Shown: positions 50,690 to 59,734 of the stretch, piece after piece | Numbering within the stretch: the stretch's first letter is position 1 | Layout of the letters: each line of letters starts with the position of its first letter | Source: Actinomycetota bacterium | GTDB taxonomy: Bacteria; Actinomycetota; Actinomycetes; Mycobacteriales; Pseudonocardiaceae | Assembly (NCBI GenBank): GCA_021324675.1 | Contig: JAJPIR010000255.1 | Span: 1 to 60,061 of the forward strand | Length of the DNA: 60,061 bases | Reading direction: 5' to 3' | Notes under the pieces: generated by a model | What the model saw: only the letters and a program-made list of their open reading frames with translations | Told to the model about the DNA's origin: nothing | Database searches by the model: none | Program-made: the position numbers and the translations under genes

Positions 50690-51835
50690 TTTGAGCCGGG
50701 TGATGAGCGAGAGCACAACAGCGGGCCGTCGTCGCCCGGATGCGGCGAGTGAGTTCGGTGGCGCGGTTGCGATAGGTCGATCGGTCGAGGCAGGACCGCA
50801 GCGCATCGGTCAGGGTGTCGGCGGTCAGCTCGTGCAGTGGCAGTGGGTGCGGCGCAACGCCGAGGCGGTGCAGCCTGGCGGCCCAGAAGGGCTGGTCGAC
50901 CAGGACGGGCACCGGGACCGCCGGTACTCCCGCGCGCAGCCCGGCGCCGGTGGTGCCTGCTCCGGCGTGATGGACCACGGCAGCCGTCCGGGGGAATAAC
51001 CACCGGTGTGGCAGGTCGCCGACCAGCAGGATGTCGTCACCGACGGGTCCGAGTCGGCCCAGCCGGACTGGACGACGGCTCGCAGGCCGGCACGTTTGAC
51101 GGCGGCCGAGACGACGTCGTGGAGCCGCTCGTGGCTCGGGGTCATGCTGCCGAACCCGACGAACACCGGAGGGGAACCGCCCCGTAGGAAGTCGACCAGC
51201 TGATCCGAGGGCTGCCATCGCGGCGGTATGGCCGGCCACCAGTATCCGGTCACGTGCGCCGTAGCGGGCCAGTCGGCGGGGCGGGGCACCACTACCGGGC
51301 TAGAGCCGTGGCAGATCGGCCAGCCATCTGGTGTGCCTCCGCAGTACCGGCGGGGAGATCGAGCCGAGCGCACAGCCGCCACAGAACGTCGGCGTAGAGG
51401 GAGCCGGTCCGGGCGAGCAGCTCGCGGCCTGCGGCGATGTTGTCAGCGGACGAGAGCGGGCCGGTAACGGGCCAGCCGGGCGGTGGGAACTCCCGGGTGG
51501 GGACCCCTGGCGCGAGATAGACGCCGAGGCTCTGGATATGAAGCCATCGGCGACGAGCCGGCTCAGCGGGGCCGGGCCGAAAGCGGTGAGCAGAATGTCG
51601 GTGCCGGCGGCCGCAGCGGCTATCACACCCTCGCCCAGCTCGTCGAGGAACGCGGCGAAGACCGATCGCGCGGCCTCCGGAAAGGGGCAGCCGTGCGTGC
51701 GCGGACGAGCTCGAGCGGATCGCCGGGAAGGCCCCGATACTCCAGCCCGCACCTGCGCACGAGATCGGCGAACCGGTCGTGTGAGCCAGCGCTACCTGAT
51801 GGCCTGCCTGCTGCAGCCGCCACCGTTTCGGCGGT
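50690..51835 (-). pseudogene. UDP-glycosyltransferase-type (GT1/MGT) gene with several frameshifts
   Basis: Pieces of a GT1 glycosyltransferase appear in order in three frames on the minus strand: HDRFADLVRRCGLEYRGLPG (N-terminal Rossmann), AAGTDILLTAFGP, then ADWPATAHVTGYWWPA, PPVFVGFGSMTPSHERLHDV, and AAVVHHAGAGTTGAGLRAGVPAV near the C-terminus (the donor-binding motif), then RATELTRRIR. At least three frameshifts break it. The N-terminus is fused to a fragment of a rep gene (51,838). Confidence 0.75.
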
Positions 51836-51837
51836 AG

Positions 51838-51912
51838 GCGCCACGATGATCCAGTCGCCGGGGTAAGTCAGGGTGATCATGGCCGGAAGGCGATAGGAAC
51901 GGTCTGTCAAAA
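51838..51912 (-). pseudogene. Fragment of a RepSA-like initiator gene (reverse orientation)
   Basis: Reads TDRSYRLPAMITLTYPGDWI and VAPTAETV on the minus strand, nearly identical to residues about 229-256 of the rep gene at 52,394 (TDRSYRLPTMITLTYPGDWV). Joined directly to the glycosyltransferase on one side and 20 bases from an integrase fragment on the other. Confidence 0.8.
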
Positions 51913-51931
51913 GGAAGCGGATGTGAGGTAG

Positions 51932-52171
51932 GCGCGGCTGCACAATGCCCGGCACACTGCCGCCACCGTGCTGCTGGTGCTGGGCATCAACCAGCGCGCG
52001 GTCATGGGCCTGATGGGGTGGTCCAACAACGCCATGACCACCCGCTACCAGCACCTCACCCCAGACCTGCGCCACGACATCGCCCGCCAAGTCGACGAGC
52101 TGCTGTGGACACCCCGTTGGACAGATGAGTCCAAAGATGAGACCAAAGATGAGACCACGAGTAGCAGATGA
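51932..52171 (+). pseudogene. C-terminal catalytic fragment of a tyrosine integrase
   Basis: 79 residues directly after a TAG: ARLHNARHTAATVLLVLGIN, AVMGLMGWS, MTTRYQHLTPDLRHDIARQV. This includes the H-x-x-R box (HNAR), the following His and the nucleophile Tyr (RYQHL) of AICE-type integrases. The N-terminal and core DNA-binding parts are gone. The stop is 32 bases before a tRNA-Phe 3' fragment, the normal place of an AICE integrase relative to its attachment site. Confidence 0.8.
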
Positions 52172-52203
52172 TCTATCAAAGGAGGCATTTACGCAGGCCA
52201 GGG

Positions 52204-52249
52204 TGGTGGCCAGGGGCGGGGTCGAACCGCCGACCTTCCGATTTTCAGT
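52204..52249 (-). repeat. tRNA-Phe 3'-end fragment, attachment-site candidate 2
   Basis: Minus-strand reading: CTGAAAATCGGAAGGTCGG, then CGGTTCGACCCCGCCCCTGG and CCACCA, the intact anticodon loop to CCA end of an actinobacterial tRNA-Phe (GAA). The anticodon stem 3' strand and the acceptor end are canonical; the 5' half is missing. It lies just downstream of the integrase fragment. Confidence 0.8.
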
Positions 52250-52393
52250 CTGGGCGGCTCGTCCATTTATTGTCCAGCGCAATTCAATTCTGCTGCGCAA
52301 CTTCAGGAATGCGTCGCGGTCAGTCATGGAGGTTCGGTGCGGTTGCTACACCGGTAGCTACACCGCTCATTCGGCCCGTAGGCAGGGCCACCC

Positions 52394-54040
52394 GTGACAT
52401 CGGTGCAGTGCGGCACGTCGACAAATCCTCCATGCGCGATTACTTCTTCGTGCGTATCTACGCCGGCTGGCGTCGGCCGGCCGGGGCGGGCCGGAGGCTT
52501 GAGCCCCGGCCGTGTCGAGCGCCGGGCCGGCGAAGCATCAACGCCCGAAGAGTCGCAGTCTCCGGGTGGGCTTGTCCCATATGCCATAACTGTCCGTGAT
52601 CATGATCAGGGTCAGGACTGGAGCACTGAGGGGTTGTGGCAGCCGGCATTCCCGGGTGCAGAGCTGGTAGGAGCAGCCGCTGACCTCCTGCCATCAACGC
52701 AAGATACCGGCGGTCGTACTTCCACGCTGAGTGAAGGTCCCCGCTGGGAAATCGTGGTCAGCCCTGGCGTGATCCGGGTGCGGACACGCGACTACGCCCG
52801 AGCCGAGCGAGCCAGTGAACGACGCCGCGCGCACGAGCGAGCCAACGCAGACATGGCGTCCACCTTCTTGGCCGAGGGCAAAGATATTCCTGAGCTGTTG
52901 CCCACGCGGGGAACGATCGTTGCTTGGAGCCCGAAGTCCCGCGCCCGATTGGTGGCTCGTCTATCTGATCTGGATTACACCCGGCTTTACGGTCGCTACC
53001 GCACTTGCGCCGATTGCGGCACCGACTACGACGCTCAGCTGGAGCACTGCCGAGCATGTCGCTCGCGCCGCTCGGTATTGACCGACCGTTCTTATCGCCT
53101 GCCGACTATGATCACGCTGACTTACCCCGGCGATTGGGTCACCGTGGCGCCTACCGCTGCGACGGCCAAACGACATTTGTGGGCACTGTGCAAGCGTTAC
53201 GCCCGAGCCTGGGATGAGCAGCTCATCGGACCGTGGAAGCTGGAATTCCAGGCTCGCGGTGCTCCGCACTTTCACTTGTCGACCACGCCGCCGATGGGTT
53301 TCACCAAGGTAACTGACCCGGAGACCGGACAAACGATCGAAGTCGATTTCCGCCGCTGGCTTTCCATCACCTGGGCTGACATCGTCGCCCACCCCGACTC
53401 TGACCAGCGACGCAAGCATCGGGCTGCCGGCACCGGGGTGGACTACGCCGAGGGCATCCGACTGACCGATCCGCGCCGGATGGCGGTGTACTTCGCGAAA
53501 TACGGCACTGCTGGGCGTAAGGATTACCAGCACCACGTACCCCGTGAGTGGCTCACCAGCGTGCTGATTTGTGACGATTGCGGTCGTGAGTACGCCGAGA
53601 ACCGCGATGAGTGCCCAGACTGCGGGTGTCTCGACGGCGAACTGATCGACGCTGGCGGCGGTCCCGGCCGCTTCTGGGGCTACCGCGGCTTGCGTCCTGT
53701 GCTCGCCATCTGCCAAGTCACGCCAGCTGTGGGCATTGCCGCCGGGCGCGTATTACGCCGCTGGTATCACGCTAAAAGGCTCACTAAAGAGATCACCGTA
53801 CAGCGCGTCGAACGCGCTACCGGCCGCATCCGTTATCGACGCTGCCGCAAACGCAAACAGCTGCTCACCCACAACCGAGGATTCGTCATCGTCAACGACG
53901 GTCCTGCCATAGCTTCCCAACTCGCCAGGTATCTCAATGGCTTCGCAGGAACGTCAAGCAGACGTCCGCACCCCGGCGGACCATCTCGACATTACAGCGG
54001 AACTCCGCCTCTCACCCACCACACTCGCCGAGTCCGCTGA
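52394..54040 (+). CDS. RepSA-like rolling-circle replication initiator of an integrative element
   Basis: Up to 548 residues. From about 68 on: DHDQGQDWSTEGLWQPAFPG, a zinc-binding CADCGTDYD...CRAC (about 204-222), MITLTYPGDW (Rep motif I, about 238), GAPHFHLSTTPPMG (the His-hydrophobic-His motif, about 292), GIRLTDPRRMAVYFAKYG (motif III with Tyr, about 345-362), then a second zinc pair CDDCGREY...CPDCGC. This is the layout of pSAM2/AICE RepSA proteins. The first ~60 residues look non-coding, and no good start is seen, so the 5' end may be rearranged. Fragments of the same gene are at 51,838 and 56,642. Confidence 0.85.
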   Translation: MTSVQCGTSTNPPCAITSSCVSTPAGVGRPGRAGGLSPGRVERRAGEASTPEESQSPGGLVPYAITVRDHDQGQDWSTEGLWQPAFPGAELVGAAADLLPSTQDTGGRTSTLSEGPRWEIVVSPGVIRVRTRDYARAERASERRRAHERANADMASTFLAEGKDIPELLPTRGTIVAWSPKSRARLVARLSDLDYTRLYGRYRTCADCGTDYDAQLEHCRACRSRRSVLTDRSYRLPTMITLTYPGDWVTVAPTAATAKRHLWALCKRYARAWDEQLIGPWKLEFQARGAPHFHLSTTPPMGFTKVTDPETGQTIEVDFRRWLSITWADIVAHPDSDQRRKHRAAGTGVDYAEGIRLTDPRRMAVYFAKYGTAGRKDYQHHVPREWLTSVLICDDCGREYAENRDECPDCGCLDGELIDAGGGPGRFWGYRGLRPVLAICQVTPAVGIAAGRVLRRWYHAKRLTKEITVQRVERATGRIRYRRCRKRKQLLTHNRGFVIVNDGPAIASQLARYLNGFAGTSSRRPHPGGPSRHYSGTPPLTHHTRRVR

Positions 54041-54271
54041 ATGCCGGCCCCATCCGTCCACCCAGCGAGTCCAGGACATTTCCGTCATTCGATCATCGCC
54101 TCGCGGGCAGGCTCCGCTAACCAACACCACGTCTCCGTCACTAACATGTGCAACAGGGCATCGCGGAGGACCACCGCATTCACCCGTATCGTGACCCCGC
54201 GACCAGCACCAACCAGCCATAACGCCATCTCCTCTTCACGCACTCCCCACCTTCACCCGCTCCTAGGCCGC
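54041..54271. other. Spacer after rep gene
   Basis: Pro/Thr/His-coding but unpatterned frames. Nothing recognised. Confidence 0.4.
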
Positions 54272-54424
54272 GCTCTTGAGGAGTGCCTGAGGTCAAGGGC
54301 CGCGAAGCGGTCGCGAAGCGACGGTTCTGGGAGGGGCCGCCGAAGGCGGATAGGGGTCCCCGCCCAGGTTCGCCCTTGATCTCAGGTGCGACGGAGAGAA
54401 AATCCGGCCGATCAGGGTGAGGGG
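54272..54424. repeat. Structured repeat R1
   Basis: About 150 bp with a 12-bp closing stem (GAGGTCAAGGGC 54,289-54,300 with GCCCTTGATCTC 54,372-54,383, one G-T pair), an inner hairpin GTCGC-GAA-GCGAC (54,310-54,322), and GGGGTCCCC near the apex. Strongly similar (about 85%) to R2 at 58,276. Its location straight after the rep gene suggests a role in replication (origin) or a non-autonomous repeat. Confidence 0.7.
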
Positions 54425-54788
54425 CTACAACCGCGGAGTTCGTGTCGTAAGCACCCTCGCGGTGTCCATGGCAGCGCCACCGTAGAGCTACCGCTCAGAT
54501 AGGCGGATATTGAACTGCCGCCGTGAGTATCCGAGGATCGCGATGAGTGTCCCGGAGCGAAGCTGTCCGAGGGCTGGCCGGAGCAAGCGGCTCCGCATCC
54601 AGGTCTTACAGAAAGTCATCACGAGGTAGGATTTGCTGCAGGGGTCAACGTAGATAGCCCCGTTGCCCTCAGCGGGAGTTGTAGCTACGCCACCTAGGAC
54701 CGGAAGTGCGACGGTTGCATGGACGACGTTACATGCCGCGGTCTGGCCCTGCCGCAGCGTGGAAAAAGCGAAGGTATAAGGTGTTGTT
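54425..54788. other. Gene-free leader of the ATPase/DUF4276 cassette
   Basis: No gene recognised. This stretch contains the change from high-GC to the lower-GC sequence of the cassette and probably its promoter. Confidence 0.4.
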
Positions 54789-55976
54789 GTGAGCGAGGTA
54801 GTTCCACAGATGCAAGCAAGGTCGCTTAGAATGCTGCGACTGCACCTGATTAATTTTTTGTCCTACCGCTCCGCCGTTTTGGACTTGGGTGACTTCGTAG
54901 TACTTGTTGGGCCAAATTCTAGCGGGAAGTCCAATGCGGTCGCGGCCATAAAACTTCTTAGGGAGATACCATTCCATGGGCTGCCAACGGCAATTTCTAG
55001 GCGGGGAGGATTTCGACAGCTCCGGCATCGTAGCGGCGGAAAGAGCTTTGACCCCACCCTTAGGCTAGATTTTCAGTTCGGCCAACATGACGAGTCCTTT
55101 TACGAGCTTGCCTTACGGGCAACCGGAAACCGTTATACAGTCTATGAACGGGCGGAGATACATCATGGCGATGGATCGTTCTGGTTCACCAATAGAGGAG
55201 GTACCTATGAATGGGAGGAGTTGCGGGAGGTAGCCGGAGAAAAGCGGCGCATCTCAAGCGAGAGGTTTCAAGAAGAATTCCTAAATGTTCAGGCGGGTCA
55301 TAGTATCGTAAGCATTACCCCAACTTACGGCTCATACATTGTCTCGGAATTGCTCCAATCCATGCAGACAGTTGAGATTAACCCTGCGAGAGTAGGAGAG
55401 CTCCAAGAACCGTCCTCCGTTCGCGACTTTGAACCCGATGGATCAAATACAGCAAGCGTTTATGATAGCTTGCCTGGAGAATCCCGCCAAGAGCTAATTG
55501 ATGAACTGTCGGCAATCGTTCCAGGTATAAGACGAATCGCGGTAAGTCGCTTCGCAGATAAGGTGACGCTCAAGTTTTACCAGGGAAAACCTGGGGCGAA
55601 TAGCCACGAGTTCCTAGCTAAACAAATGTCAGATGGCACCCTCCGAGCGTTTAGTATTTTGTTATCCATGCTCCGCCCGTCGCCGCCCGCGCTTGTAGTG
55701 ATAGAGGAACCAGAGATCGCTATACATCTCGGCGCCCTTCGGACGCTAATTGATATCTTGCGGCAACGATCAGAACGGTCCCAAATACTTATTACGACAC
55801 ACAGCGCTGACATTGTTGACACGATCGACCCGCAATCATTGCGCGTGGTATGGACAGCTGAAAGATCTTCTCATATCTCGCGAGTCGCCGACCATACGAT
55901 TAAGACGGTCAGAGAGGGGCTCATTACCCCCGGACAGCTACTCCGGTCCGATGCTTTAGATCCGGCTGGCATATGA
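54789..55976 (+). CDS. AAA/ABC-type ATPase of a split OLD-like (PARIS-like) defence pair
   Basis: 395 residues from GTG 54789. LRLHLINFLSYRSAVLDLGD leads to Walker A VGPNSSGKSNA (about 40-50). A long variable insert (about 75-270) follows, then QMSDGTLRAFSILLSML (signature region), Walker B ALVVIEEPEIAIH, and LITTHSADIVD (H-loop). It is a RecF/SMC-like AAA ATPase without a TOPRIM domain of its own; the TOPRIM-like partner is the next gene, overlapping by 4 bases. Codon use is AT-richer than the surroundings, indicating recent transfer. Likely senses phage functions and activates the partner. Confidence 0.82.
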   Translation: MSEVVPQMQARSLRMLRLHLINFLSYRSAVLDLGDFVVLVGPNSSGKSNAVAAIKLLREIPFHGLPTAISRRGGFRQLRHRSGGKSFDPTLRLDFQFGQHDESFYELALRATGNRYTVYERAEIHHGDGSFWFTNRGGTYEWEELREVAGEKRRISSERFQEEFLNVQAGHSIVSITPTYGSYIVSELLQSMQTVEINPARVGELQEPSSVRDFEPDGSNTASVYDSLPGESRQELIDELSAIVPGIRRIAVSRFADKVTLKFYQGKPGANSHEFLAKQMSDGTLRAFSILLSMLRPSPPALVVIEEPEIAIHLGALRTLIDILRQRSERSQILITTHSADIVDTIDPQSLRVVWTAERSSHISRVADHTIKTVREGLITPGQLLRSDALDPAGI

Positions 55977-56545
55977 CTGCTAACCCGTCGGAGCCCCATA
56001 TCGGGTTGGTAGTTGAGGGCCCAGGTGATGCTGCGGCTTTGCCCGTATTGCTGAGGTCATTCTTTCACGAGCGGGGAGAGTACCGCGATATCTTGGGCAA
56101 GCCCATTAGCTGCAATGGGCGCGATAAGGCACTTGCACCTCGCGGTTTGGAAGGTTTCGTAGCGGCAGCGGCTGCCCGCCCCGGATGCAATGCCGTGCTC
56201 GTTGTATTGGACGGAGAGAGTGACCTGGTCTGCAAGCTAGGGCCTGAGCTATTGGGCCGGGTAGAAGCAGTAACACATTTAAACGTTGGTATTTGCCTGG
56301 CTGAACACACTTTTGAAGATTGGATATATGCCTCCGCGGAAACTCTCGATCTCGACCTCGAATACGACTCAGGTAAGCATGGTTTGGGCGTAATACGCCA
56401 GGCTCTACGGCCGCTGACATATGCGAAACCAACATGGCAACCACGGCTGACTGCGCGGATGGACCTCAAGCTTGCGGCGTCTCGCAGCATGAGTCTTGCT
56501 AGGCTATCCGTCGAGATTGAGCGGCTCATGGGCTTTATTGACTGA
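55973..56545 (+). CDS. DUF4276 TOPRIM-like effector of the split OLD-like pair
   Basis: 190 residues. IGLVVEGPGDAAALPVLLR supplies the conserved Glu and Asp, VLVVLDGESD the central acidic DxE...D, and ICLAEHTFEDWIYAS the last conserved Glu/Trp block; these are the DUF4276 motifs. DUF4276 is a TOPRIM-like nuclease candidate. It overlaps the ATPase by 4 bases (ATGA). The pairing resembles PARIS (ATPase + DUF4435 TOPRIM) and other split OLD systems, but DUF4276 is a different family. The length is normal and the gene intact. Confidence 0.8.
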   Translation: MTANPSEPHIGLVVEGPGDAAALPVLLRSFFHERGEYRDILGKPISCNGRDKALAPRGLEGFVAAAAARPGCNAVLVVLDGESDLVCKLGPELLGRVEAVTHLNVGICLAEHTFEDWIYASAETLDLDLEYDSGKHGLGVIRQALRPLTYAKPTWQPRLTARMDLKLAASRSMSLARLSVEIERLMGFID

Positions 56546-56641
56546 CCGTTGCCCGATGATGAACACAGGACGGCATAGGTCTCCTTGAAATGTTGGAAAC
56601 AAGGTGGGCGATTCCCAGCACTGATTGTCACGCCGACGGAT

Positions 56642-56784
56642 GATCAGGGTCCAGAATGGGGCACTGAGGGCTTGTGGCAGCCAGCATTCCCAGGTCCAGA
56701 CCTGGTAGGAGTCGCCGCTCCGCGTGCCGCTCGCCGCTGACCGACCGCTCCCATCGTGCCCCTGTCATGATCACACTGACTTAC
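56642..56784 (+). pseudogene. Internally deleted copy of the rep gene
   Basis: 56,642-56,719 matches 52,604-52,682 of rep (DQGPEWGTEGLWQPAFPGPD against DQGQDWSTEGLWQPAFPGAE), and 56,722-56,784 matches about 53,058-53,127 (LTDRSHRAPVMITLTY against LTDRSYRLPTMITLTY). About 370 bp between these parts is deleted and the two halves are out of frame. Confidence 0.8.
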
Positions 56785-56922
56785 CACTGCTCAACGAGAC
56801 ACGTCGGGACCTGGAATTCCCTGATACATCGGACCCATTGCACTGAGTTACCAACCGACGGAGGGCGCGTGATTGACACATGGGATTTACTCGTCGGGAA
56901 CTTGCCCAAAAGGCTCGACCAT

Positions 56923-58077
56923 TCAGGCTAACTCTTCTTCAGAATGGCCCCTCTGCCCCGTGGTCGCCAATAAACTTGAACGCTTATCGAGCACATAGCC
57001 TTCCCAAGATTCTCCCGTTCGCCAAATGGCCTCAATTTGCAGAGAAGCTAGAAGTTCTGCGAAAGCATCTCCGACGGGTTCGGAGAAGAGAGCGACCAGA
57101 TCAGGATCTGGCCGGCCGAGCTCCCGGTAGCAAAAGTGGCGATAAGCAAACAGTTGACCAATAGCCTCCCGTACTACTTTTTCCGCGTTCGCGCCAACGG
57201 TTTTTGCTTCCACTAGCCAGTGAACATCAGCACTGGCGACCGTCAAGTCGCACGGATGGACGTTATTAGCCACAGTGAGAGAAGCGGCTCGGGCCCAGCG
57301 GGCGAATAGATTTATAAGTTCCTCGTGTCGGCGGCCCTTATCCTGATCTTGTTCATTAACATGCGCCCGATACTCAGCTGAACTCTTTGGGCGGAAAGCG
57401 GGAGGCTTTGGCTTAAACCGCGGCCTGTCCTTCTTAGTATCCGCGGTGGTATTTATTCGACCCGGCTCCGTGGCTAAAATTTCTCGTTTGCTTTCAATAC
57501 AGGTTCCATACAAATTTAGAAACCGTGCAAGATCGTCGCGCAGAACAGTCTCGGGCGGTAGCCGCGCTATGTCGTACACTACGGCAGCGATGTTTCCTGC
57601 TTCGTATCCACATGGTAGAAAGTATGTCGATGCCCCAAGGTCGATCTTGGAGAGCAACCCCTCTAAAGTATCCCCACTAAGGCATTGCCGTAAGAGCTCG
57701 CTCTCATTCCGCAACTCCGATAATGCGGCCCTTTCGGCCGCCGAGTTCTTTAGCCCGCGCTTTAGGCCATTTTGTTTATGTTGCGTGGCGCCCTGGTTCA
57801 TACTGAGGTAAACGTGCGATAGATCCCTACGGTACAGGTAAACAACGTATAATCCCTCTTGTGCGGTCGTGGTCACGTCTCGGTCGAGCAGCGCGATCCA
57901 CGGAACGATCGGCAGGCTTTGTCCCGAGCCGCTTACCCGGACGCGCATACCGGGAGGCGCGAGCTTTGGAAGCTCGTGCCGTATCCGTTGTAGGTGCTGC
58001 TGTGCTGGCTGACCTCGCTCAAGGGAGGCCTGGTATCCCTTGGCTTGCACACCTGTAAGCATCTCGGTTAGATCCAC
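56923..58077 (-). CDS. DUF3578 (McrB N-terminal-like) and PD-(D/E)XK nuclease fusion; modification-dependent restriction candidate
   Basis: 384 residues from GTG 58077 (an open frame reaches 58,275 but the extra 66 residues look non-coding). The N-terminal ~120 (LPIVPWIALLDRDVTTTAQE, GLYVVYLYRRDLSHVYLS, MNQGATQ) match DUF3578, the DNA-binding N-domain of McrB/MrcB-like proteins. A linker (about 175-230, Arg/Lys/Pro-rich) leads to RRHEELINLFARWARAASLT, VHPCDLTVASADVHWLVEAK, a PD-(D/E)XK nuclease core with D..EAK. No AAA GTPase domain is present. Codon use is AT-richer. It should cut DNA with modified bases, or be recruited by its partner cassette. Confidence 0.75.
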   Translation of the reverse strand: MDLTEMLTGVQAKGYQASLERGQPAQQHLQRIRHELPKLAPPGMRVRVSGSGQSLPIVPWIALLDRDVTTTAQEGLYVVYLYRRDLSHVYLSMNQGATQHKQNGLKRGLKNSAAERAALSELRNESELLRQCLSGDTLEGLLSKIDLGASTYFLPCGYEAGNIAAVVYDIARLPPETVLRDDLARFLNLYGTCIESKREILATEPGRINTTADTKKDRPRFKPKPPAFRPKSSAEYRAHVNEQDQDKGRRHEELINLFARWARAASLTVANNVHPCDLTVASADVHWLVEAKTVGANAEKVVREAIGQLFAYRHFCYRELGRPDPDLVALFSEPVGDAFAELLASLQIEAIWRTGESWEGYVLDKRSSLLATTGQRGHSEEELA

Positions 58078-58275
58078 ACGATCGATCGTAAGTGCGAGGT
58101 ATGACACGCACGCTGTAGGGCCCCAAGGCAGCTGGCTGCGCGAGATGGACGCGCTGGGAGCCGTGATCGCGGTTGGGGACGGGTGCAAGTAGCTAGCGAG
58201 AGAATTGGAAAACGAACGCGGCCGTCCGTCCGAGGTCCCTCGCCAGGTATCTCTCCTCATCCGGTCCAAGGCCAA

Positions 58276-58410
58276 GCTCTTCAGGAGTGCCGGGGGTCAA
58301 GGGCCGCGCAGTGGTCGCGTAGCGACGGTTCCGTGTGGGGCTAGGGGTCCCCGCACGGGTTCGCCCTTGACCTGCGGTGCGACGAAGAGAGAATCGATCG
58401 GAGGGTGAGG
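58276..58410. repeat. Structured repeat R2
   Basis: About 135 bp, similar to R1. Closing arms GGTCAAGGGC (58,295-58,304) and GCCCTTGACC (58,363-58,372); inner hairpin GTCGC-GTA-GCGAC (58,314-58,326); apex GGGGTCCCC. R1 contains an extra GC-rich block before the apex. Where R1 has a G-T pair in the closing stem, R2 has G-C, so pairing is kept while the sequence differs. Confidence 0.7.
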
Positions 58411-58459: not shown

Positions 58460-58888
58460 TCAAATGTGCACGAGCTTGACGCCGTCGTGGGCACGGGCGC
58501 AGGCCTGATCACTGAATGCGTCAGTCACGCGGACAACATATGCAGGATCCATGCGTTGCCGGATTTCCTCGATGGTGAGCCAACGCACCGATAGAGCCTC
58601 GTCGGTTGTGGCGAGCCGGCCACCGACTGGTGAGCACCGGAACACGAGAGCGACGATTGCGCGGGGCATGTTTTTGTAGACACCGGTAAGACGTTCGACC
58701 TGTACCTCGATGCCGGTTTCTTCCAAGACTTCGCGGCGTACGCCTTGGTCGAATGTTTCGGCCAGTTCGAGGACACCGCCAGGTGGTTCCCAGTGATGAT
58801 TGTCGCGGCGGCACACTGCGAGGACTCGCCCGTCGTCACGGACGACGATTCCGGCGACGCTGACTGAATGTTTTGGCGTTTCAGACAC
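58460..58888 (-). CDS. Nudix hydrolase, Pif-like gene of the integrative element
   Basis: 142 residues. SVSVAGIVVRDDGRVLAVCR, then the Nudix box GGVLELAETFDQGVRREVLEETGIEV (positions about 37-62, with the conserved G5xE7xREUxEExGU), then VYKNMPRAIVALVFRC. In pSAM2 a Nudix protein called Pif blocks transfer from or into cells that carry the element; this gene sits beside a KorSA-like regulator as in that system. Divergent from it, with 69 bases between. Confidence 0.88.
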   Translation of the reverse strand: MSETPKHSVSVAGIVVRDDGRVLAVCRRDNHHWEPPGGVLELAETFDQGVRREVLEETGIEVQVERLTGVYKNMPRAIVALVFRCSPVGGRLATTDEALSVRWLTIEEIRQRMDPAYVVRVTDAFSDQACARAHDGVKLVHI

Positions 58889-58957
58889 GGAAGGCCTCCG
58901 TGGTCCGGGCGCTGGGTAGCCTGAAGGCTATCAGTCGTCTGGATGACTGGAGGAGCT

Positions 58958-59734
58958 ATGGCGCTGGGTGCGCTTGATCGCATGGATGACCGCCCGCCGT
59001 ATCGGCAGATTGCTGACCAGCTGCGGGCGGCGATCGAGCGCGGGGAGCTGCGACCGGGCGACAAGCTGCCGTCCGAGGCGGTACTGATGGAGCACTATCA
59101 CGTGGCTCGGATGACGGCACGGCAGGCGATTCAGGAGCTTCGCAGCGAGGGCCGGGTCGTTTCCGAGCAGGGTCGGGGTGTGTTTGTGCGCGACGCTCCG
59201 CCGGTGCGCCGGCTGGCATCAGAGCGCTTCGCTCGTCGGCACCGCGAGGCGGGTATGGCTGCGTTCAGCGCGGAGGCCGCCAAGACCGGGTTCACGCCGC
59301 GAGTTGATCAGATTGAGGTGTCGCGGGCGGTGCCTCCCGCGGATATTCGCGAGCGGCTGCGCCTGGCGGAGGATGCAGCGGTGATCGTCCGGTCCCGCCG
59401 GTACTTGGCCGATGGCCGTCCAGTGGAGACTGCTGTGTCTTACGTCCCAGCGGATATTGCTGATGGCACGCGCATCGCTGAACCGGACACCGGTCCGGGA
59501 GGAATCTATGCCCGGCTGGAAGAGATGGGGCACGTCCTCGACCGGTTCACGGAAGAGGTATCGGCCAGGATGCCCACGGCAGCTGAGCGACGGCGTCTGG
59601 AGCTGTCCCCGGGCACACCGGTGATCGTGCTGGTGCGGACCGCCTTTGACACGAACGGCCGGCCGGTGGAGGTCTGTGACACCGTCAAGGCGGCGCCGGC
59701 TTACGTGCTGGAGTACGACTTCCCGGCACGTTGA
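58958..59734 (+). CDS. KorSA-like GntR regulator (UTRA) of element transfer
   Basis: 258 residues from ATG 58958 (GGAGG seven bases upstream). wHTH: PPYRQIADQLRAAIERGELR, PSEAVLMEHYHVARMTARQA, EGRVVSEQGRGVFV; the UTRA domain runs from about 85 (FARRHREAGMAAFSAEAAK to VLEYDFPAR). In AICEs, KorSA-type GntR proteins repress the replication/transfer operon. TTATCTAGGTAA and CTTGTCTAG sites lie just downstream, before the next gene. Confidence 0.88.
   Translation: MALGALDRMDDRPPYRQIADQLRAAIERGELRPGDKLPSEAVLMEHYHVARMTARQAIQELRSEGRVVSEQGRGVFVRDAPPVRRLASERFARRHREAGMAAFSAEAAKTGFTPRVDQIEVSRAVPPADIRERLRLAEDAAVIVRSRRYLADGRPVETAVSYVPADIADGTRIAEPDTGPGGIYARLEEMGHVLDRFTEEVSARMPTAAERRRLELSPGTPVIVLVRTAFDTNGRPVEVCDTVKAAPAYVLEYDFPAR

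Follow-up and report, generated by a model that had tools for sequence, protein, structure and literature searches.

Two overlapping genes, located between positions 54789 and 56545 of a Pseudonocardiaceae contig, code for an ABC-type ATPase and for a small protein of the DUF4276 type, and raise the question of whether they form an anti-phage system, how such a system would act and whether it is new. The window, that is, the whole stretch of DNA analysed here, is 60,061 nucleotides long and corresponds to the entire contig.

Organization of the Gene Pair

The ATPase ORF extends from 54789 to 55976 on the forward strand, starts with GTG and codes for 395 aa; the DUF4276-like ORF, on the same strand, extends from 55973 to 56545, starts with ATG and codes for 190 aa. 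Both were thus found where the sequence-only reading of this locus had placed them, and the 4-base overlap that it described is the stop/start sequence ATGA (55973–55976, forward strand). The same overlap is present in 54 of 61 related pairs, in a count where the start codon was picked near the ATPase stop and a 4-base overlap was preferred where available; translational coupling of the two genes through this overlap is likely from its sequence. The matching lower GC content of the genes was also recovered, with 51.3% for the ATPase gene and 55.7% for the DUF4276 gene versus 64.1% for the whole contig; as a block, the pair has a GC content of 52.8%, below that of all 584 windows of equal length taken along the contig in steps of 100 bases.

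The ATPase

Pfam, PADLOC, the alignment of relatives and the structural model all indicate that the first gene product is a HEC-01A-like ABC ATPase of the OLD/RecF type. It had been described as a RecF/SMC-like ATPase lacking a TOPRIM domain, and Pfam agrees: AAA_21 (7e-30, 105.6 bits), AAA_15 (57.4 bits) and SMC_N are all above their cut-offs, and no TOPRIM family is found among its six matches at E ≤ 1. NCBIfam returned only matches below the cut-off, the best being MAD3 (5.5e-22). The best PADLOC match is the HEC-01A model PDLC04178 (1.9e-75 over residues 11–393); the protein is also matched by PDLC04144 (1.5e-25), which is called HEC-01B, so that the A and B labels of HEC-01 are not clean, and by the Menshen NsnB model (1.6e-23).

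The sequence contains a Walker A motif (GPNSSGKS, residues 41–48), a signature motif (S281-D-G-T284) and an EEPE stretch (306–309). In an alignment of the window copy with 57 relatives, from which L045, L088 and L090 were excluded as too short and L094 as too long, G41, N43, G46-K47-S48, S281-x-G283-T284 and EEPE 306–309 are invariant in all 58 proteins; the H-loop position is occupied by His in 33 and by Gln in 25. The AlphaFold model is confident (pLDDT 93.1, pTM 0.92), and Foldseek identified PtuA of retron/Septu systems as its best match (2.4e-14), followed by SMC and Rad50 heads. Comparison of the ATPase profile with solved structures returned OLD (6p74, 2.8e-17), GajA and PtuA, with AriA matched weakly (1.4e-6).

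The DUF4276 Protein and the TOPRIM Nucleases

The second protein (190 aa, 55973–56545, forward strand) is HEC-01B-like and, considering PADLOC, Pfam and profile–profile results together, a candidate TOPRIM of the OLD type. The three motifs pointed out at first reading, VEGPGD, LDGESD and AEHTFEDW, are all present. Pfam gave DUF4276 alone at E ≤ 1, with a weak score (22.3 bits versus a cut-off of 30.2 bits), and NCBIfam gave zero matches; PADLOC gave three, all HEC-01B, the best being PDLC04196 (1.6e-26, residues 9–186). A PF14103 search of its own genome missed even the known gene, and the Pfam model was therefore dropped.

In TOPRIM domains a catalytic Glu follows strand 1 and an acidic DxD closes strand 3. 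The DUF4276 protein has E15 following strand 1, bears D80-G-E82-S-D84 where strand 3 ends and shows FExW at 114–117; its AlphaFold model, also confident (pLDDT 94.2, pTM 0.90), has a strand at 9–14 before E15 and a strand at 72–81 bearing D80. These positions were followed in an alignment of the window copy with 60 relatives (L088 excluded as too short): E15 occurs in 60 of the 60 rows with letters there, and D80, E115 and W117 in all 61 sequences. A smaller alignment of 13 rows, made of 12 fetched relatives and the window copy, has five invariant columns (E15, D80, D84, E115 and W117). Position 82 is Asp in 60 of the 61 sequences and Glu in the window copy alone, which may be weakened because Glu replaces the second acidic Asp; the window copy is also the sole carrier of G at 81, S at 83, H at 112 and T at 113.

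An OLD-like TOPRIM (PF20469) is present in 36 of 296 genomes of the phylum, and a profile was built from 26 sequences aligned out of 30 loci fetched; the second acidic place in these 26 is occupied by D in 19, G in 4, and E, P and A in one each. The diverse 13-row DUF4276 profile matched the OLD TOPRIM profile with E = 7.1e-7 and a probability of 91.9 over 70 columns, having VEG and D-x-D in register and E15/D80 opposite TOPRIM E19/D72. The 61-row profile gave a weaker match (E = 3.5e-4, probability 37.3), and the best values among 22 unrelated neighbour families used as controls were 1.04 with the 13-row profile and 6.6 with the 61-row profile. By way of reference, the HHpred link of AriB itself to TOPRIM is given as E = 0.02 in an excerpt of PMC9122126. 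The structural comparison that the sequence-only reading had proposed for this protein turned out differently, since Foldseek by itself revealed no TOPRIM fold: it gave zero PDB matches at E ≤ 0.001, and the best 50 of 1273 matches comprised only weak matches to other proteins and no TOPRIM. Likewise, the DUF4276 sequence profile matched nothing among PDB sequences at E ≤ 10. The proposed TOPRIM-like character of the second protein is thus upheld by the profile–profile comparison, where it scored better than the 22 controls, and this comparison links DUF4276 to the OLD-type TOPRIM nucleases.

Distribution and Co-Inheritance

A single-sequence scan of genome contigs found no relatives; when GTDB genome contigs were queried with an alignment, 65 loci were obtained from 148 pattern matches. 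The ATPase gene lies directly upstream of the DUF4276 gene in 61 of them, 58 being called by script and three (L039, L050 and L089) added, where the ATPase end was the same and the longest ORF began too early. Because 61 of 65 related loci show an identical gene order, the pairing is not due to chance. Three of the 61 pairs (L045, L088 and L090) contain only a partial ATPase. As regards the remaining four loci, L082 is truncated where its contig stops, and L085, L087 and L095 have no trace of the ATPase by tblastn, representing DUF4276-like genes with no detectable ATPase nearby. A DUF4276/TOPRIM-like gene, recognised by motif, also follows the ATPase in 13 of 13 fetched regions, six of which were reached through the second gene and seven through the ATPase.

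The relatives are hosted by Actinomycetota, Pseudomonadota, Myxococcales and planctomycetes. The distance matrices of the two partners are correlated (r = 0.868 for 58 pairs; the maximum in 2000 permutations was 0.18), which, at the level of sequence divergence, shows co-inheritance of the partners and not physical contact. A single-sequence search, which overlooks distant relatives, recovered relatives of the second gene from 4 of 297 genomes at the family level and from 4 of 396 at the phylum level, each count including its own genome; none was found in 10 other listed genomes of the genus. ATPase relatives are present in 7 of 298 genomes of the order at E ≤ 1e-15, its own included. The nearest relative found belongs to Actinophytocola oryzae (Pseudonocardiaceae), whose ATPase is 53% and whose second protein 46% identical to those of the window, and from these comparisons the window pair is best described as a divergent branch of HEC-01. 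Carriage of the pair by phages was considered and rejected, two scans of viral contigs having returned no relative.

Genomic Neighbourhoods of the Related Pairs

If the pair belongs to defence, its relatives might be enriched near defence genes, as the sequence-only reading had anticipated. The 546 neighbour ORFs within 6 kb of the 61 loci, called by a simple script, were clustered and compared with control regions of the same contigs, each separated from the pair by 60 kb or more. Nine actinobacterial loci contain two N6-methylase genes upstream of the pair, the nearer of which carries HsdM_N in the examples scanned; HsdR lies downstream in eight of the nine and HsdS immediately upstream of the pair in seven. 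In eight loci, therefore, the pair has type I methylase genes on one side and the R-subunit gene on the other. In L041, HsdR adjoins the pair on the opposite strand; a DNA methylase is found near the pair in L059, L069 and L077, and a UvrD-type helicase in L045 and L069, with more distant matches in L063 and L068.

Altogether, restriction-modification (R-M) genes occur within 6 kb of 13 of the 61 loci, and three more (L045, L063 and L068) have a helicase only, versus none of 19 control regions. The one-sided Fisher test gives p = 0.0075 for 16/61 versus 0/19 and p = 0.021 for 13/61, that is, with the helicase-only loci dropped, and both values overstate the difference, because six seeds came from case loci and related actinobacteria were counted separately. 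By the same seed test such neighbours are absent from 45 of the 61 loci, several of which lie among housekeeping genes; the expected defence neighbourhood is therefore seen in a part of the family only. PADLOC was also applied, as a coarse test, to case proteins of 19 loci (120 of 156, one longer than 1500 aa having first been dropped) and to control proteins (120 of 151), and at E ≤ 1e-20 gave matches to 94 families in the former versus 5 in the latter, a count of families and not of distinct proteins, in which each family matched at most two case proteins and mad3 matched five control proteins; this amounts to a modest excess of defence families near the pairs.

Some neighbourhoods are of interest in themselves. 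In L065, which was not caught by the seeds, the pair is flanked by DUF1156 and DUF499 proteins, which we take to be parts of Hma-like systems, and in L021, from the smaller set, a Methylase_S gene lies upstream of the pair. Other pairs are found beside genes that we read as yicC/gmk (L062, L070 and L075), carA (L025 and L027) and a citrate-lyase-like gene (L023, L026 and L029); the position of these pairs suggests either recurrent insertion sites or vertical inheritance.

The latter loci bear on the possibility that the pair, composed of a RecF/SMC-like ATPase and a structure-specific nuclease, serves DNA repair or chromosome maintenance and not defence. The similarity of the ATPase to SMC and Rad50 heads, the proximity of some pairs to yicC/gmk or carA (gene names assigned by eye) and the 45 loci devoid of an R-M or helicase neighbour are in line with it, as is the cell-cycle role described, in an excerpt of PMC12796447, for the archaeal OLD-family ATPase Cran1. 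We regard such a function as quite improbable for a pair that is rare and patchy in the single-sequence counts given above, has R-M genes near 13 of its 61 loci and shows a GC content below that of its host contig.

Plasmids provided further examples. A plasmid search with the second protein alone gave zero matches; the ATPase matched 208 plasmid records, and of five inspected two carry AAA and then DUF4276 among restriction-type genes, DUF4276 not being seen in the incomplete gene tables of the other three. A Meiothermus plasmid (L116) contains an S subunit, AAA, DUF4276 and an R subunit in this order, and Aeromonas pHX3 a methyltransferase, AAA, DUF4276 and a helicase. The type I cluster of L116 (731–8768) also holds, ahead of AAA/DUF4276 and the R subunit, a DUF4433 and macro-domain pair, presumably DarTG-like.

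The presence of relatives on plasmids, together with two overlapping genes on integrative-element DNA and the Pfam note for AAA_21 (“putative AbiEii toxin, Type IV TA system”), would also suit a toxin–antitoxin or plasmid/element-stabilising module, in which one of the two proteins holds the other in check and ensures that the cell retains the element. This appears rather improbable, as the ATPase is a complete ABC protein resembling OLD and PtuA, R-M genes accompany 13 of the 61 relatives and, in PARIS, deletion of either gene is non-toxic according to an excerpt of PMC9122126.

The Surrounding Element

The pair had been assigned to a RepSA/KorSA-type element. Mobile DNA is indeed present, with a tyrosine integrase remnant and a strong GntR/UTRA match; the RepSA match is below the cut-off and the element is decayed, so this assignment stands in part. 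The first repSA-like replication initiator (52602–54040, forward strand; longest ORF from 52394) has a weak PF20199 match (21.4 of 34 bits) and is followed by a segment (54253–54404) that is repeated, with 84–86% identity, at 58257–58395, as revealed by repeat comparison. A 5′ remnant of a second repSA copy (56640–56790, forward strand) is 86% identical to 52602–52681 over 80 bases. The repSA modules are thus arranged in tandem across 52602–58395, the second being partly decayed and gutted, with another gene inside, and the ATPase/DUF4276 pair sits between the two copies.

The gene occupying the place of the interior of the second repSA is on the reverse strand (56923–58275; 450 aa for the longest ORF) and codes for an MrcB_N-domain protein (Pfam, 2.8e-29); a D...EAK pattern, read by eye in the C-terminal part, suggests a PD-(D/E)XK nuclease, and no PADLOC model matched the protein at E ≤ 1. 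It may represent a single-chain McrB-like DNA sensor joined to a PD-(D/E)XK nuclease, with the GTPase domain absent. Downstream are a NUDIX hydrolase identified by Pfam (58460–58888, reverse strand) and a GntR/UTRA regulator (58943–59734, forward strand), called KorSA-type here from its position and domains. Only 327 bases of the contig follow the latter, so that any Tra genes and the right part of the element would lie outside the window. The NUDIX gene, next to the GntR gene, matches the PADLOC candidate PDC-S07 (1.9e-14) and is more likely a normal gene of the element.

To the left of the first repSA copy, the C-terminal remnant of the tyrosine integrase (51941–52168, forward strand; 35.5 bits, cut-off 27.1) is followed by a stretch (about 52190–52260, reverse strand, read by eye) that is similar to the 3′ part of a tRNA gene and is a possible attachment site; no complete tRNA gene was found in the window. 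With an inverted repSA piece, these occupy 51823–52260. Elements of the pSAM2/AICE type would be expected to have RepSA, an integrase, KorSA, Tra genes and att sites; the window shows a RepSA match below cut-off, an integrase remnant and a GntR gene. Because of the integrase remnant and the two tandem, partly decayed repSA modules, the region is regarded as decayed integrative-element DNA and not as a complete element; its arrangement can be explained by integrative elements that accumulated and decayed at a single attachment site and brought along two defence-type cargoes.

Given this context, the window pair could itself be a decaying passenger that no longer works, as the change in DxD and the decay of the element would indicate: it is alone among 61 in having Glu82 and its residues at 81, 83, 112 and 113, and the second repSA copy, the integrase and the inverted repSA piece are all remnants. 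We consider this unlikely; both ORFs are full length, E15, D80, D84, FExW and all the ATPase motifs are retained, both AlphaFold models are confident, and the second acidic place is variable in the OLD TOPRIMs as well, with D in 19 of 26.

Proposed Function

The reading that we favour, and that seems to us reasonably probable from the sequence comparisons, is that the pair is a two-gene anti-phage module of the HEC-01 type, carried as cargo by decayed integrative-element DNA and composed of an ATPase sensor and a TOPRIM nuclease; by analogy, the two proteins probably shut down the cell during phage attack. The HEC-01A-like ATPase would dimerise through its ABC heads and act as sensor and regulator, and the DUF4276 protein would be a single-domain, metal-dependent TOPRIM nuclease of the OLD type, an output coupled to the ATPase by the gene overlap. 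The trigger would most plausibly be a phage that inhibits a resident restriction system or causes DNA ends of an unusual kind to be exposed; upon infection the ATPase would activate or release the TOPRIM protein, which, once freed, would cut nucleic acid, either DNA or RNA, and stop both cell and phage. What the sequences show is the conserved pairing, the intact ATPase motifs, the TOPRIM-type acidic residues with the profile link, the co-inheritance and, in about a fifth of the related loci, R-M genes nearby; that the two proteins form a complex, that the second is a nuclease, and its substrate, the trigger and the protection are what we infer from this.

According to an excerpt of PMC12409363, AriA of PARIS senses the trigger and AriB is released and cuts tRNA, and an excerpt of PMC12839542 gives TOPRIM-linked OLD-ABC pairs a back-up effector role in BREX-type loci. 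We therefore consider it most likely that the TOPRIM is gated by the ATPase and stops the infected cell.

The type I clusters in which the pair lies between specificity and restriction subunits invite a narrower proposal, for now a doubtful one. HEC-01 may guard restriction itself, with the ATPase monitoring the R-M complex and freeing the stand-alone TOPRIM protein once this complex is disabled by an anti-restriction protein of a phage, so that the logic of PARIS would have been reached through another family of TOPRIM proteins. The copy in the window, with its D-G-E site and its position beside the McrB-like gene, might be adapted to a different restriction partner or to a different nucleic-acid target. 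If true, anti-restriction sensing would have evolved with more than one ATPase–TOPRIM family, and the type I clusters carrying the pair make this proposal directly testable.

Comparison with Known Systems

Menshen, whose genes are presumably NsnABC, is related to the window pair through the match of the ATPase to the NsnB model. It comprises a DUF262 gene together with a nuclease predicted to be of the OLD type (excerpt of PMC10952713), and no DUF262 protein was found among the four window neighbours scanned. PtuA of the Septu/retron PtuAB systems has the closest fold to the ATPase by Foldseek; its partner PtuB is an HNH nuclease (excerpt of PMC12409363), whereas the window partner is TOPRIM-like. 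The class 1 OLD proteins, GajA of Gabija and the retron Eco8 effector likewise combine an ABC ATPase with an OLD-type TOPRIM, but have both domains on one chain (excerpt of PMC10568477), unlike the window pair, where they are on two. Gabija and single-chain OLD were thus rejected as identities for the pair: there is no fusion, no TOPRIM in the ATPase and no neighbouring helicase, neither a helicase nor a reverse transcriptase having been found among the four window neighbours scanned.

PARIS likewise has separate genes for an OLD-type ABC ATPase and a TOPRIM protein, and is tied to restriction, but its partner is DUF4435 and that of the window is DUF4276. The PARIS rule, as excerpted from PMC9122126, sets scores of 32 and 27 for an AAA_15/AAA_21 ATPase and of at least 27 for the DUF4435 partner. 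The window ATPase lies above the former values (AAA_21 105.6 bits, AAA_15 57.4 bits); in the second protein Pfam found no DUF4435 at E ≤ 1 and no AriB model matched in PADLOC, and membership of the pair in PARIS was rejected, the DUF4435 partner being absent. DUF4435 was found in one of 296 genomes, and this single sequence did not match either DUF4276 profile, which is weak evidence because it barely matched the OLD TOPRIM profile either. The earlier view of a combination related to PARIS but distinct from it is supported.

Novelty of the combination is not supported: it already exists in PADLOC as HEC-01, plasmid annotations at NCBI show AAA and DUF4276 genes side by side, and operons with TOPRIM-linked OLD-ABC proteins have been published (excerpt of PMC12839542). 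The excerpt of PMC12988326 expands HEC as “Hma-embedded candidate”, reports several HECs as active, HEC-06 included, without HEC-01 among those that it names, and cites as the source of HEC-01 the preprint Payne 2024. In a search of a library of published papers, no paper mentioning “DUF4276”, and none with both “HEC-01” and “PADLOC”, was found. The ATPase–DUF4276 combination is thus a catalogued but barely studied defence candidate.

HEC-01 is nonetheless the closest identity, as both window proteins match its models best and one relative (L065) has the DUF1156/DUF499 flanks described above. The window pair differs in its divergent second protein (46% to the best relative), with D-G-E instead of D-x-D, and in its location in decayed integrative-element DNA beside the McrB-like gene. 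To HEC-01 the present analysis adds a computed TOPRIM assignment and the logic of a conserved gene order.
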